64,000 nucleotides of DNA from Terriglobia bacterium (GTDB lineage Bacteria; Pseudomonadota; Alphaproteobacteria; Acetobacterales; Acetobacteraceae). Within the stretch, counting starts at the first letter, position 1. Every line of letters starts with the position of its first letter. Below are positions 5,909-11,526 of the stretch, one piece after another. The translations under genes and the position numbers were made by a program. The stretch covers positions 1 to 64,000 of the forward strand of contig JAIMBF010000002.1 in NCBI GenBank assembly GCA_023511585.1, given 5' to 3'. Below the pieces are notes generated by a model, which did not search any database, had not been told where the DNA came from, and saw nothing but the letters and a program-made list of their open reading frames with translations.

Positions 5909-7288
5909 ATGTTGCACCAGATTGACCCGGTTCTTACTGCCGCTCAGGCCTTTCTTGGCGAGCGGATTTCCCGCAACGCCGCGATCCGCGAGCAGCATAG
6001 CCACGGCGAGGACACCAACCCGCCCGCACTGCCCGATGCGGTGGCGTTCGTAGAAACGACCGAGGAGGTGGCGAAAATTTTGGCGCTCTGCAATCGCTAC
6101 CGGGTTCCCGTCGTGCCGTTTGGAGCAGGGACCTCGCTCGAAGGCCATGTAACGCCGATCCGCGGCGGCCTTTCGCTCGATCTCAGCCGGATGAACAGAA
6201 TTTTGGAAGTGAATGCCGAAGATATGGATTGCCGGGTGGAAGCCGGCGTCACCCGCCAAGCCTTGAATGCGCATTTGCGCGACCTCGGCCTGTTCTTTCC
6301 GGTTGATCCGGGCAGCGAGTGTACCTTGGGCGGCATGTGCGCCACGCGGGCCAGCGGCACCAATGCCGTGCGATACGGCACGATCCGCGAAAACGTTCTG
6401 GGTCTTACCGTTGTGCTGGCCGATGGGCGAGTGATCCAAACCGGCCGGCGCGTGCGCAAATCGGCAACCGGCTATGATCTGACCCGTCTCTTTATCGGCT
6501 CCGAAGGCACTCTGGGGGTGATCACCGAAATCCAGCTCCGCTTGCATGGCATACCGGAGGCGATGTCGGCGGCCGTTTGCCAGTTCGCCGACCTCAAGGG
6601 AACAGTGGAAACGGTGGTGGATGTGATGCAGGCGGGCATTCCGGTCGCGCGCATGGAGTTTCTGGACGACGTTCAGATGCGCGCGGCAATTGCTTTCTCG
6701 AAGCTGGAAGGATTTGCCGCGCGCCCGACGCTGTTCTTTGAATTCCACGGCACGCATGCCTCGGTGATCGAACAGGCGAAGCTTGCCGAGGCTCTTGCGC
6801 AAGAGCACGGCGGATCGGATTTTCGTTGGGCTACGGAAACGACAGAGCGTAGTCGCCTCTGGAAAGCCCGGCATGATGCGTATTGGGCAGCGCTTGCGCT
6901 GCGGCCGGGGTATCGGGCGCTGACCACGGATGCGATCGTGCCCATTTCACGCCTTCCGGAAGCTATTTTGGGCGCGCGGGCGGATATCGACGCGTCCGGC
7001 TTCACGGCGCCGATGGTGGGACACGTGGGGGATGGCAATTTCCATACGGTGATCTTGTTTCCGCCGGAGCCGGGTGCGTTGGAACGGGCCTGGGCGCTGG
7101 ATCGCAAGATCGTAGCGCGGGCGTTGGCACTTGGCGGATCTTGCAGCGGCGAGCACGGCGTGGGCCTCGGCAAGCGCGAATTTCTGGAGCAAGAGCACGG
7201 CGCCGGAGCGCTGGCGGTGATGCGCAGCCTCAAGGCAACGCTCGACCCGCACGGAATTTTGAACCCCGGAAAAATTTTCCTGAACTGA
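5909..7288 (+). CDS. FAD-linked D-lactate dehydrogenase / glycolate oxidase subunit (GlcD/Dld type)
   Basis: 459 residues, the normal length for the family. An N-terminal FAD-binding PCMH domain includes VVPFGAGTSLEGH, the conserved segment GGMCATRASGTNAVRYGT and the ATGYDLTRLFIGSEGTLG motif. The C-terminal oxidase domain ends with SCSGEHGVGLGKR and LDPHGILNPGK. Members oxidise D-lactate, glycolate or other 2-hydroxy acids and pass electrons to cytochrome or quinone. The start has GGGAGG 7 bases upstream. It is divergent from the aldolase operon, so it may process a 2-hydroxy acid made nearby; the substrate is inferred only at family level. Confidence 0.88.
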   Translation: MLHQIDPVLTAAQAFLGERISRNAAIREQHSHGEDTNPPALPDAVAFVETTEEVAKILALCNRYRVPVVPFGAGTSLEGHVTPIRGGLSLDLSRMNRILEVNAEDMDCRVEAGVTRQALNAHLRDLGLFFPVDPGSECTLGGMCATRASGTNAVRYGTIRENVLGLTVVLADGRVIQTGRRVRKSATGYDLTRLFIGSEGTLGVITEIQLRLHGIPEAMSAAVCQFADLKGTVETVVDVMQAGIPVARMEFLDDVQMRAAIAFSKLEGFAARPTLFFEFHGTHASVIEQAKLAEALAQEHGGSDFRWATETTERSRLWKARHDAYWAALALRPGYRALTTDAIVPISRLPEAILGARADIDASGFTAPMVGHVGDGNFHTVILFPPEPGALERAWALDRKIVARALALGGSCSGEHGVGLGKREFLEQEHGAGALAVMRSLKATLDPHGILNPGKIFLN

Positions 7289-7417: not shown

Positions 7418-9040
7418 ATGAAAGCAGGCACCGCTATTGCTGAAATCCTCAAGCGCGAGGGGATCGAGATTCTCGCCGGCTACCCCGTGAACCACTTGTT
7501 CGAGTTTGCGGCCGAAGCGGATATCCGGCCGATTGTAGTGCGTCAGGAGCGGATCGGCCTGCATATCGCCGATGCCATTTCGCGGCTCTCCTCGGGACGG
7601 AAGATCGGGGTGTTTTGCATGCAGCACGGTCCCGGCGCGGAGAACGCCTTTGGCGGCGTGGCTCAGGCCTTCGGCGAATCGGCCCCCATTCTGGTGCTGC
7701 CGATGGGCTATCCGCGGCGCTTGGCCTACGTTCCACCGAATTTCAACTCGGTCATCAGTATGCGCACGGTAACCAAGTCGGCGGAGCCGATCTTCTTGCC
7801 GGCCGAAATTCCAAACATTTTCCGCCGCGCGTTTTCGCGGTTGCGCAATGGCCGCGGCGGCCCGGTGTTGGTGGAAATCCCGAACGACATTTGGAACGAA
7901 GAAGTGCCCGAACCGCTTGCCTATGAACCGGTTTCCTTTACGCGCTACGGGCCGGATCCGGCGGATGTGAAAAAGGCGGCCGCGATTCTTGCGAAAGCTC
8001 AACGGCTGGTCATCTACGCGGGGCAAGGCGTGCACTATGCCCGCGCTTGGGATTCGCTCAAAGCGCTCGCGGAACGCTTGGCGGCGCCGGTGGTCACCAG
8101 CCTTGGCGGGAAAAGCGCTTTTCCGGAAACGCACCCGCTTGCACTGGGCTCCGGCGGCGTTTCGTTCCCGAAGACGGTCTTTGAATTCCTGCGCAAGGCG
8201 GATGTTATTTTCGGAATCGGCTGCAGTTTCACCGAAAGCTCCTTCGCCGTGAAAATTCCCTCCGGCAAGCGCATCGTCCATGCCACGCTGGATCCCGATC
8301 ATCTGAACAAGGACGTGCGGGCCGATGTTGCGTTGGTGGGCGATGCCGAGCTCGTTCTGCAGGCGTTGCTGGCGGAATTGCCTTCGGCACGTCGGGACAG
8401 TGCGGATGTGGTCGGTGAAATCGCTAGTGTTCGGGAAGGTTGGCTGAAGGAGTGGATGCCCAAGCTCACGTCCGGCGAAGTGCCGCTGACGCCCTATCGG
8501 GTGATTTGGGATTTGCTGCACACGGTGGATCTTCACAACACCATCATCACCCACGATGCGGGAAGTCCGCGCGACCAGCTTGCCCCGTTTTGGACCGCCG
8601 TCGAACCGCTTTCTTATATCGGCTGGGGGAAAACCACACAGCTTGGCTACGGGCTTGGCCTCGCCATGGGCGCCAAGCTCTCTCACCCGGACAAGCTTTG
8701 CATCAATGTCTGGGGCGACTCGGCGATCGGCTTTACCGGAATGGATATTGAAACCGCCGTGCGCGAGCGGATTCCGATCCTCTCCATTCTCTTTAACAAT
8801 TTCTCGATGGCCATCGAATTGAAAGTGATGCCTATTTCTACCCAAAAATATCGCGCAACCGATATTTCGGGTGACTATGCTGCGCTCGCGCGGGCACTGG
8901 GTGCCTATGGCGAACGCGTGACGACGCCTGAGGAGATTGTCCCGGCGATCAAGCGCGGAATCGCGGAAACAAACGCGGGCAGGCCTGCCTTGCTGGAATT
9001 CATCACCGCAAAAGAAACCGCGATTTCAAAATTCGTCTGA
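7418..9040 (+). CDS. Thiamine-diphosphate-dependent enzyme, acetolactate-synthase-like
   Basis: 540 residues with the three-domain ThDP fold. The N-terminal domain carries the cofactor-activating Glu in VVRQERIGLHIADA, the centre is a Rossmann-like domain, and the C-terminal cofactor site runs from WGDSAIGFTG to LFNN. ATG at 7418 is chosen because GAGGGAGGAG lies just before it; longer starts lack a ribosome site and read through non-coding sequence. It belongs to the large acetolactate synthase / benzoylformate decarboxylase / oxalyl-CoA decarboxylase superfamily. The retained Glu argues against a typical glyoxylate carboligase, which lacks it. The substrate is unknown; placement after the FAD oxidase suggests 2-keto acid chemistry. 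Confidence 0.8.
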   Translation: MKAGTAIAEILKREGIEILAGYPVNHLFEFAAEADIRPIVVRQERIGLHIADAISRLSSGRKIGVFCMQHGPGAENAFGGVAQAFGESAPILVLPMGYPRRLAYVPPNFNSVISMRTVTKSAEPIFLPAEIPNIFRRAFSRLRNGRGGPVLVEIPNDIWNEEVPEPLAYEPVSFTRYGPDPADVKKAAAILAKAQRLVIYAGQGVHYARAWDSLKALAERLAAPVVTSLGGKSAFPETHPLALGSGGVSFPKTVFEFLRKADVIFGIGCSFTESSFAVKIPSGKRIVHATLDPDHLNKDVRADVALVGDAELVLQALLAELPSARRDSADVVGEIASVREGWLKEWMPKLTSGEVPLTPYRVIWDLLHTVDLHNTIITHDAGSPRDQLAPFWTAVEPLSYIGWGKTTQLGYGLGLAMGAKLSHPDKLCINVWGDSAIGFTGMDIETAVRERIPILSILFNNFSMAIELKVMPISTQKYRATDISGDYAALARALGAYGERVTTPEEIVPAIKRGIAETNAGRPALLEFITAKETAISKFV

Positions 9041-9063
9041 TTGCGGCGTGTTTGAAAGCAAGC

Positions 9064-9291
9064 TCAAGCGTGGCCCGCAACGCCGAAGGTTTGTTCGCTG
9101 CTTGCGCGCACCACTGCGGCAAGCAAACGCAGGGCTTCGGCCCCGCCACGGTCTTCCAATGTACCGGCATCAAATTCCGCCGCCAAAAGCTCGGCCTGAG
9201 CAGCGATGGTGTTCGCCGCCCGCGCCAGGGCTTCCCGCGAAAGCATGATTTGTTGGTCCTCGGAAAGCGAATCCCAATCCTTCGACGCCAT
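9064..9291 (-). CDS. Small hypothetical protein, Ala/Glu-rich helical
   Basis: 75 residues (MASKDWDSLSEDQQ... to VAGHA), mainly predicted helix, with no signal peptide or membrane segment and no motif I recognise. Composition and codon choice match flanking genes, and a GGAGAG ribosome-like site lies upstream of the ATG. It converges with the ThDP enzyme gene. It could be a lineage-specific conserved protein; function unknown. Confidence 0.5.
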   Translation of the reverse strand: MASKDWDSLSEDQQIMLSREALARAANTIAAQAELLAAEFDAGTLEDRGGAEALRLLAAVVRASSEQTFGVAGHA

Positions 9292-9684
9292 CTTCTACTC
9301 TCCAAAACAATGGAGGCTACGCAGCCGATATATCGACACCGCCCTTAGTGGGACAGAGTCGCTATCATCATTGTTTCCCCCGCCATTATCGCCGGAAATG
9401 TTTAATGGTTAATTATTAACAGTTACTATAATTAAGAGCAAGTTGATAAAACCCAACCTCACGGTTTCGTGATTCGACGATTCGCTCCGCGTCTTCTTTG
9501 CGTTCTTTCGGGGTTTTGATTTCTTGGGGGGTTATGAGGACTCCCGGCCCCTTCGGAATGGAGGAAAGTCGCGGTGCGATTGTATCGGGAATCGGCTGCG
9601 TATCAATCTTCGGTTGCAAAGCAGAATCCTGGGGTTGTGTCAGGTGTTCTTCTCGCTGCTGAAAGATTTTGCTAGCTGAACGAT
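9292..9684. other. 393-bp non-coding stretch rich in GANTC sites and TTAA heptads
   Basis: No convincing gene is present. The stretch is noticeably more AT-rich around 9400-9440. It holds TTAA at 9402, 9409 and 9416 with TTAC at 9423, a 7-bp spacing. It also holds six GANTC sites (the CcrM target) at 9356, 9471, 9479, 9539, 9589 and 9624. It is the upstream region of rnhB and, one gene further, ccrM. A leftward open frame covers part of it but has no credible start. A promoter or cell-cycle control function is inference. Confidence 0.5.
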
Positions 9685-10302
9685 ATGCCGGATCTCGAGA
9701 TCGAGCGCAGGCTGGGTGGGCATATCGCCGGGGTTGATGAAGTCGGCCGCGGGCCGCTTGCCGGACCAGTGCTTGCCGCCGCGGTTTCGCTGGGGCCGAA
9801 CGTTTCACCCGAGCTCGCCGCGCTGATCGACGATTCGAAAAAGCTCTCCGCATCGGCGCGGCAAAGTGCTTTTGACGCGTTGCGATTCCATAAAGGCGTG
9901 CAAATCGCTCTCGGCGCAGCTTCGGTTGCCGAGATTACGCGGCTGAATATCACCGGTGCGAGCCTGCTTGCCATGCGCCGCGCCGTGCTGCGCCTGCCCC
10001 GCTTGCCGGATACTGTATTGGTCGACGGCCATTTGGCGCCGCCTCTTGCTTGCCGCGTGTGCTGCATTGTCGGCGGCGACGCGCGCTCGCTTTCCATTGC
10101 CGCCGCCTCCATCGTGGCAAAAGTCGTTCGCGACCGGCTGATGACAAAACTGGCCCGACGTTTCCCCGCATACGGATGGGAGCGCAACGCGGGATATCCC
10201 ACCCCCGAGCATCGCGCGGCCCTTGCCCGAATCGGCCCTTCTCCGCATCATCGGCCGGGCTTTGGCTCGGTTCGGGCTTTCGTTGAAGTCTCGCGACTTT
10301 GA
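9685..10302 (+). CDS. rnhB: Ribonuclease HII
   Basis: 205 residues, typical RNase HII size. The catalytic motif [14 protein letters not shown] (Asp18, Glu19), the DDSKKLS segment and the later VDGH and [20 protein letters not shown] segments are all present. The enzyme nicks RNA-DNA hybrids and removes single ribonucleotides from DNA. It sits 111 bases upstream of ccrM, an arrangement known from other alphaproteobacteria. The start ATG opens directly on the conserved fold. Confidence 0.95.
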
Positions 10303-10413
10303 CCGAAACCCGGATGTGGCAAAGACGCACTTCTTTGGGACCGATTCGAGACTGATTGACGCAACCTCTTTCGCCATTCCATAACGACCTGTTAAGGAAG
10401 GTGTCCAGAAGCC

Positions 10414-11526
10414 TTGGAAATTGCGCGCGAACTGCCACTTGACCAGATTTTACTGGGAGATTGCATCCGTATCATGCGGATGCTGCCGAGCGGTTCCATC
10501 CACTGCATCTTTGCCGATCCCCCTTACAATCTCCAGCTCAGGGGCGAGTTGCGGCGCCCGGACGATAGCGTGGTAGACGGCGTTGACGAGGAATGGGACC
10601 GCTTCCCGGACTATGCGGCCTATGACGCCTTCACGCGCGAATGGTTGAGCGAATGCCGTCGCCTGTTACACAAGGACGGCACGATCTGGGTGATCGGGGC
10701 TTATCACAACGTTTTTCGGCTTGGTTGCGCGCTGCAGGATTTGGGCTTTTGGATTCTCAATGACGTGATTTGGCGCAAGGCCAATCCGATGCCCAATTTT
10801 CGCGGCCGGCGCTTTACCAACGCGCACGAGACTTTGATCTGGGCAGCCCGCGGGCGCGATTCGCGGTATCGGTTCAATTATCAGGCCATGAAAGCCTTGA
10901 ACGACGACGTGCAAATGCGAAGTGATTGGTTTATTCCCATATGTACCGGCTCGGAGCGCCTTCTCAACGCCAACGGACTGAAGTTGCACCCCACGCAAAA
11001 GCCGGAGGCGTTGCTCTATCGCGTGCTGCTGGCCGGCACGGCACCGGGAGATATCGTGCTCGACCCTTTCCTTGGAACCGGCACAACCGCCGTGGTTGCC
11101 CGCCGTTTGGGCCGGCATTTCGTCGGCATCGAGAGGCACCCGGCCTATGTAGAGGCGGCACTGGCGCGCTTGAAGCAGGTTCGGCCGATGCCGGAGGCGG
11201 GCCTCGCCATAACGCCTTCCCGGCGCGATGCTCCGCGCATTCCCTTCGGCAGTCTGGTGGAGGCCGGAGTGGTTCCCCCCGGCTCCAAGCTCTTCGACCG
11301 CACGCGGCGCGCGAATGCCACGGTGGCGGCCGATGGTTCTCTGATTGCTGGCAATCTGCGCGGCTCCATTCATCAAGTCGGTGCCCGCATCCAGAACGCC
11401 CCCTCCTGCAACGGCTGGATGTTCTGGCATATCGAGCGAGGCGGCACGCTCGTTCCCCTGGATGTGCTGCGCGAGGAAGTTATCCGTGCACAAGCCTTGA
11501 AGCCGTCCTCAGTCGTGCGCAGCTGA
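10414..11526 (+). CDS. ccrM: Cell-cycle adenine DNA methyltransferase CcrM (GANTC)
   Basis: 370 residues. The catalytic motif DPPYNLQL begins at about residue 35 and the AdoMet-binding motif [14 protein letters not shown] near residue 213, the beta-class order. A C-terminal extension (residues about 265-365) matches the RAMA-type domain found in CcrM. The enzyme methylates adenine in GANTC and couples transcription to replication in alphaproteobacteria. The start is a TTG preceded at 11 bases by AAGGAAGG; no nearby ATG is in frame. A GATTC site lies 67 bases upstream of the start, and TTAAG overlaps the ribosome site. No paired restriction enzyme is present, as expected for an orphan methylase. 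Confidence 0.93.

Follow-up and report, generated by a model that had tools for sequence, protein, structure and literature searches.

A cluster of CcrM target sites ahead of rnhB-ccrM in an Acetobacteraceae genome as a candidate methylation-responsive control region

Six GANTC sites, the target of the adenine methyltransferase CcrM, crowd together ahead of the putative rnhB-ccrM operon in an Acetobacteraceae genome. Since similar crowding is found in many relatives, this suggests that the methylase may help control its own production. We think it somewhat probable that the gap ahead of rnhB controls transcription in response to methylation, giving CcrM feedback on the operon that encodes it; GcrA probably reads the sites.

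Results

A GANTC array in the gap ahead of rnhB-ccrM

The genome (3.14 Mb, 201 contigs) is the only member of its genus in our comparison. The locus lies in the 64-kb stretch of DNA that was analysed as a whole ("the window"), and its main features, in window coordinates, are:

9064..9291, minus strand: divergent 75-aa ORF (ORF reading)
9292..9684 (393 bp), no strand: candidate intergenic control region between the divergent 75-aa ORF and rnhB-ccrM (sequence and ORF reading)
9356..9628, no strand: array of six GANTC, at 9356, 9471, 9479, 9539, 9589 and 9624
9470..9484, no strand: tandem TGATTCGACGATTCG (TGATTCG-A-CGATTCG), both copies matching the extended GcrA motif YGAKTCG/K
9685..10302, plus strand: rnhB, ribonuclease HII (PF01351; NF000595 above cut-off)
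10414..11526, plus strand: ccrM, GANTC adenine methyltransferase (Pfam N6_N4_Mtase and RAMA; PDB 6pbd CcrM, E 8e-148)

The ccrM product scores 604.8 bits, below the cut-off of 830 of the Caulobacter-type NCBIfam model NF050803. The genome also encodes GcrA (PF07750, 112.1 bits vs a cut-off of 26.9), CtrA (363.2 bits vs a cut-off of 350), and a MucR/Ros protein. A repeat element or mobile piece was rejected, no second copy of the gap (9292-9684) being found in the genome. A structured RNA leader was rejected as well: with hits accepted up to E 1, Rfam matched nothing in 9000-10500. The region has possible leader ORFs of small size (30-54 aa). A perfect 12-nt inverted repeat (TACGCAGCCGAT / ATCGGCTGCGTA, at 9318-9329 and 9591-9602) brackets most of the control region and adjoins an imperfect 18-nt pair (9325-9342 / 9571-9588); the second arm holds the GAATC at 9589.

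The original prediction had located all six GANTC correctly. Across the window GANTC is avoided (119 per 64 kb vs a shuffle mean of 247); in Alphaproteobacteria it is described as under-represented in genomes and over-represented in intergenic DNA (PMC3973325). Within 248 kb sampled from the same genome (the window and the initial parts of 20 further contigs), the sole cluster with at least five, or at least six, GANTC per 273 bp is the one ahead of rnhB-ccrM, and seven clusters hold at least four. Site density in the gap does not equal the intergenic average: it reaches 15.3 per kb (6 in 393 bp) vs 2.06 per kb in sampled intergenic DNA, the latter rate coming from a crude gene caller that misplaced genes at the rnhB-ccrM locus itself. 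Under a Poisson model, at least six GANTC in a stretch of 393 bp have a probability of 1.1e-4 if the window rate applies and of 2.0e-4 if the intergenic rate does. When the gap itself (47.8% GC) is dinucleotide-shuffled, the mean is 2.04 GANTC, with P = 0.011 for the observed count, which is thus partly explained by AT-rich make-up; the "roughly one" site originally expected falls between the genome-rate and gap-shuffle expectations. Two of the six sites are of the extended YGAKTCG/K type, as that motif is stated in PMC7987155, and GANTC-N3-GANTC occurs at 10 places genome-wide.

Enrichment recurs by position across Acetobacteraceae

The family comparison covers 149 loci (23 + 26 + 100), drawn from 234 genomes in which rnhB was matched, high-scoring matches being over-represented; the remaining 85 of the 234 were left out, some for closeness to a contig end, and L013, L022 and L026-L030 (other families), as well as L031-L066, were dropped before counting. 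Across these loci, 224 GANTC fall in the 300 bp preceding rnhB vs the 61.4 predicted from their remaining DNA, a 3.65-fold excess, whereas seven sister palindromes range from 0.78- to 1.22-fold in the same 300 bp. At least four GANTC precede rnhB in 26/149 loci, and in 20/71 where the gap is at least 100 bp; other upstream regions of the family loci with gaps of at least 100 bp average 0.68 GANTC, with at least four in 4/250. The YGAKTCG form accounts for 98/224 GANTC ahead of rnhB vs 309/1287 elsewhere, a comparison among related sequences, so that its Fisher P overstates the difference. In 31/149 loci ccrM was not found behind rnhB, gene order being broken or cut by contig ends.

Array layouts vary by lineage, neighbouring sites being most commonly spaced 8 or 10-12 bp: Asaia (L040, L041) carries GATTC-N4-GATTC-aaaagc-GATTC, and further lineages carry a GACTC-N3-GAnTC array. 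Conservation of the sites in close relatives, proposed as a check on the original prediction, is absent in the strict sense: the nearest relatives compared (genus g99; L075, L081, L092), whose CcrM is 82% identical to the window's, carry 0 GANTC both in the 300 bp upstream of rnhB and between rnhB and ccrM. A tree of 117 CcrM proteins (FastTree, CcrM alone) requires at least 9 changes of the label "at least three sites", 7 of them forced by starred branches, and has no starred branch that places the window. Because the nearest relatives lack the sites and the window lacks the rigid core seen in the class (see below), the window's array looks like a separate gain, its placement on the tree being weak. 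The enrichment recurs by position and not base by base: it is the placing of an array at the presumed promoter of ccrM that recurs, not these particular sites.

A chance cluster in an AT-richer gap, its sites having no role, would be compatible with the gap-shuffle P value, with the site-free relatives, and with the gap having been picked out of a 64-kb window. However, no other such cluster exists in the 248 kb sampled, and the same position is enriched beyond sister palindromes in the family, as is the region ahead of ccrM in the class; we consider such an origin unlikely.

A second placing of sites between rnhB and ccrM

Across the 97 family loci with an rnhB-ccrM gap of 20-400 bp, that gap holds 60 GANTC vs 10.9 expected, the sister palindromes ranging from 0.61- to 1.88-fold. 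At least three GANTC precede rnhB in 36 of the 118 loci with ccrM behind rnhB; none of these 36 array loci has two or more GANTC in the rnhB-ccrM gap, vs 18/82 of the others (P 0.0014). Loci with sites in this second gap display the layout TTGACN-N3..5-GANTC ahead of ccrM, which occurs 18 times in 65 kb of regulatory stretches vs 5 times in 917 kb elsewhere (2 of these 5 also beside ccrM), and many of these loci have CATTGT, CATGGT or CATGTT at a -10 position. TTGAC itself precedes ccrM in 7/36 array loci vs 71/82 others, a contrast due to short gaps and gone where the gap is at least 60 bp (7/8 array loci vs 69/75 others). A clean promoter swap, in which TTGAC is lost where an array precedes rnhB, was tempered accordingly, and the either/or pattern of site placing in part reflects short gaps. 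At one locus (L212), four GAATC spaced 68-69 bp apart lie at -301 to -96 from ccrM, two of them in similar surroundings (ggcgtGAATCcgatggcc), which suggests a tandemly repeated unit multiplying CcrM sites.

A promoter-like core ahead of ccrM in the class

The class set consists of 69 alphaproteobacterial loci (L243-L311), drawn from the 97 genomes that gave a match; L243, from the window's own family, was left out of the site count (68) and kept among the 69 for layout. With one locus for each of the 68 other families, the 200 bp ahead of ccrM contain 203 GANTC vs 27.3 expected (7.4-fold), the sister palindromes ranging from 0.81- to 2.17-fold. In 57/69 loci rnhB runs in the same direction as ccrM and ends no more than 450 bp upstream of it. 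TTGACN-N0..8-GANTC is found in 42/69 loci vs 2 occurrences in 182 kb elsewhere, and the form TTGACN-N1..5-GANTC-N3..8-GANTC in 25/69 and nowhere else in those loci. At longer distances, TTGACN-Nn-GANTC peaks at n=13 (27/69 loci, against 1 for n=12 and 3 for n=14; 1 elsewhere). TTGACN-N12..14-GANTC with CANNNT starting from the last C was detected in 31 of the 69 loci scanned for layout, this hexamer having A second in 30/31 and T sixth in 29/31. TTGACN-N13-GANTC reads as a putative sigma-70 promoter with a 17-bp spacer and a -10 fused to a CcrM site. Some loci depart from this pattern: 27/69 have no spacer site, and 9/68 have no GANTC at all in the 200 bp.

The class core TTGACN-N12..14-GANTC with CANNNT at the last C has no match in the window's rnhB-ccrM gap, and ahead of the window's rnhB no hexamer with at least 4/6 matches lies at the class-core distance. 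The second gap contains one related feature, identified from the sequence and by comparison with the family and class layouts:

10343..10361, plus strand: GATTC (10343-10347) followed by TTGACG (10356-10361), in the rnhB-ccrM gap

This may be a remnant of a ccrM-proximal promoter, with GANTC upstream of the -35 rather than in the spacer, and the TTGACG could by itself drive ccrM.

Candidate promoters and TTAA repeats

Further features of the gap ahead of rnhB bear on where transcription may start:

9385..9412, minus strand: promoter-like TTAACC-N16-GATAAT toward the divergent ORF (9/12 matches, consensus match only), using the TTAACC bases
9402..9419, no strand: TTAA-N3-TTAA-N3-TTAA, at one place in the 3.14-Mb genome and with a frequency of ~1e-4 in gap shuffles
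9405-9412, minus strand: TTAACCAT, inside the TTAA triplet
9408..9420, no strand: palindrome GTTAATNATTAAC (GTTAAT-T-ATTAAC), at one place in its own genome
9427..9432, plus strand: perfect TATAAT, candidate -10 for rnhB-ccrM, with a predicted start at ~9439
9606-9579, minus strand: second promoter-like site (promoter scan)
9628-9644, plus strand: weak terminator-like hairpin (promoter/terminator scan)

The tandem at 9470-9484, TTAACCAT and the TATAAT did not figure in the original prediction. A sigma-70 scan of 9250-9720 returned no plus-strand promoter, because no -35 hexamer fits the TATAAT at 9427; three TTAA occupy the -35 place instead, at about -37, -30 and -23 from the predicted start, and the tandem would lie downstream of this consensus-based start. 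The 7-bp recurrence of TTAA at 9402, 9409 and 9416 was correctly described, a fourth TTAA starting at 9432, and so was its departure from TTAA-N7-TTAA, as no two TTAA in the gap are 11 bp apart.

These repeats raise the alternative of a CtrA-activated promoter. As in Caulobacter, where CtrA activates ccrM (PMC3667746, PMC2877005), CtrA would bind the repeated TTAA across the -35 region that belongs to the TATAAT at 9427; the GANTC would be secondary or fortuitous. The ctrA product above its family cut-off, the TTAACCAT lying with three TTAA in the -35 region, and the uniqueness of the TTAA triplet in the genome are all consistent with this alternative, as is the class comparison, which shows 4 TTAA-N7-TTAA in the 13.8 kb preceding ccrM vs 3 in 182.5 kb elsewhere. 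However, the gap has no TTAA-N7-TTAA, TTAACCAT is not enriched genome-wide (23 vs 34 for a reversed control; 13 of the 18 other copies inspected fall within called genes), and among the 149 family loci only the window has it ahead of rnhB; the better minus-strand promoter match moreover takes the same bases for the divergent ORF. The originally suggested CtrA-type control thus retains an encoded CtrA and one TTAACCAT in its favour and is otherwise weak, and we judge it improbable that CtrA is the main regulator here. As a family-wide operon signature it was rejected, TTAACCAT and TTAA-N7-TTAA each occurring once in 44.7 kb ahead of rnhB. The palindrome GTTAATNATTAAC was likewise rejected as a shared operator, being present in 1/100 genomes, with none in the 99 other Acetobacteraceae genomes searched. 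Ahead of ccrM at one class locus (L269), TTAACCAT lies 3 bp from a GACTC within a six-site array, i.e., a CtrA-like half-site beside CcrM sites.

The two minus-strand promoter-like sites (9412-9385 and 9606-9579) could also mean that the array belongs to the divergent 75-aa ORF instead of rnhB-ccrM. Yet this ORF has no Pfam or NCBIfam match and, among 92 loci compared, matches only its own copy, whereas the arrays of relatives accompany rnhB-ccrM, making such a role very improbable. The origin-like element originally mentioned as a lesser option found no support: the gap contains no DnaA-box-like site (at most 1 mismatch), the window contains 5 vs 4.2 expected, and cumulative GC skew across the window has just a shallow minimum, at 6034. 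With neither a DnaA-box cluster nor a strong skew turn, a chromosomal origin was rejected.

Discussion

The simplest way to read these patterns is that CcrM sites upstream of ccrM mediate feedback on that gene. CcrM would methylate its sites in the gap, passage of the replication fork would leave them hemimethylated until CcrM acts again, and hemimethylation would alter transcription, most likely via GcrA acting with sigma-70 RNA polymerase at the tandem YGAKTCG, so that CcrM supply would be under feedback control. In this scheme we infer the methylation of the sites, GcrA binding, the sign of the effect, the transcription start, and the joint transcription of rnhB and ccrM. Support comes from the array and its rarity in the sampled genome, from the family and class enrichment, and from the presence of ccrM, gcrA and ctrA genes. 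Counting against it are the site-free nearest relatives, the absence of the class core from both window gaps, the lack of a plus-strand sigma-70 promoter, the hairpin at 9628-9644, the gap-shuffle P value, the TTGACG that might serve as a separate ccrM promoter, the contribution of short gaps to the either/or pattern, and the seeming loss of GcrA control of ccrM in Caulobacterales (PMC7987155, 2021 analysis). The methylation-sensitive control first proposed for this gap stands on GANTC enrichment relative to sister palindromes, upstream of rnhB within the family and of ccrM across the class, and not on conservation of its own sites, which the nearest relatives (g99) do not keep.

Known systems offer partial parallels. 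In Caulobacter, CcrM methylation recruits GcrA to promoters, that of mipZ having two juxtaposed GAnTC (PMC3667746), and a GANTC located between -10 and -35 accompanies activation 40-60 min into the cell cycle (PMC4287350). Like the GcrA/CcrM-controlled promoters of mipZ, podJ, ftsN and ctrA P1, the window has extended-type GANTC in a promoter region and a genome encoding both GcrA and CcrM; unlike them, it has six sites, most apparently downstream of the candidate -10, and the gene proposed to be controlled is ccrM itself. The methylation-sensitive gcrA promoter of Agrobacterium tumefaciens provides a precedent for feedback, as the 250 bp in front of this cell-cycle regulator gene carry 6 GANTC and its repression depends on CcrM (PMC11514494); the gene differs, however, and CcrM's repression of it has been demonstrated. 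With the CtrA-activated ccrM promoters of Caulobacter, Brucella and rhizobia, the window shares TTAA near a candidate -35 and a CtrA gene, but its spacing is N3, not N7, and the TTAA feature is not common to family loci.

Already known is that ccrM is an inferred core member of the GcrA regulon, from YGAKTCK scored between -200 and +100 in 13 species (PMC7987155, 2021). Our results resemble that prediction in gene, kind of site and class-wide reach, and differ from it in the TTGACN-N13-GANTC layout, the placing ahead of rnhB and the repeated gains, which are absent from the available text of that paper. In PMC2877005, sites ahead of cell-cycle genes are counted with no conclusion drawn, and degenerate CtrA relays are described in its Rhodospirillales cluster. 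Feedback of this kind has long been suspected; the literature searched, which mostly excludes subscription papers, did not describe its base-by-base layout, the placing upstream of rnhB or repeated gains. Older work on the Caulobacter ccrM promoter may touch on the base-level layout.

Short of thinking it probable, we tentatively propose that in most Alphaproteobacteria the ccrM promoter is built from targets of CcrM itself, with one GANTC inside the spacer and a second fused to the -10 while the spacing stays fixed at 17 bp. Methylation would then gate polymerase as a replication-timed self-sensing switch. In Acetobacteraceae, under this proposal, the control was moved or rebuilt several times into arrays upstream of rnhB, of which the window's is one. 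If true, the methylation state of the ccrM promoter would tune CcrM supply. The fixed TTGACN-N13-GANTC fused to the -10 in many families would offer a direct, mutable target, and the window's array ahead of rnhB would be a naturally occurring example of this control reassembled from different parts.
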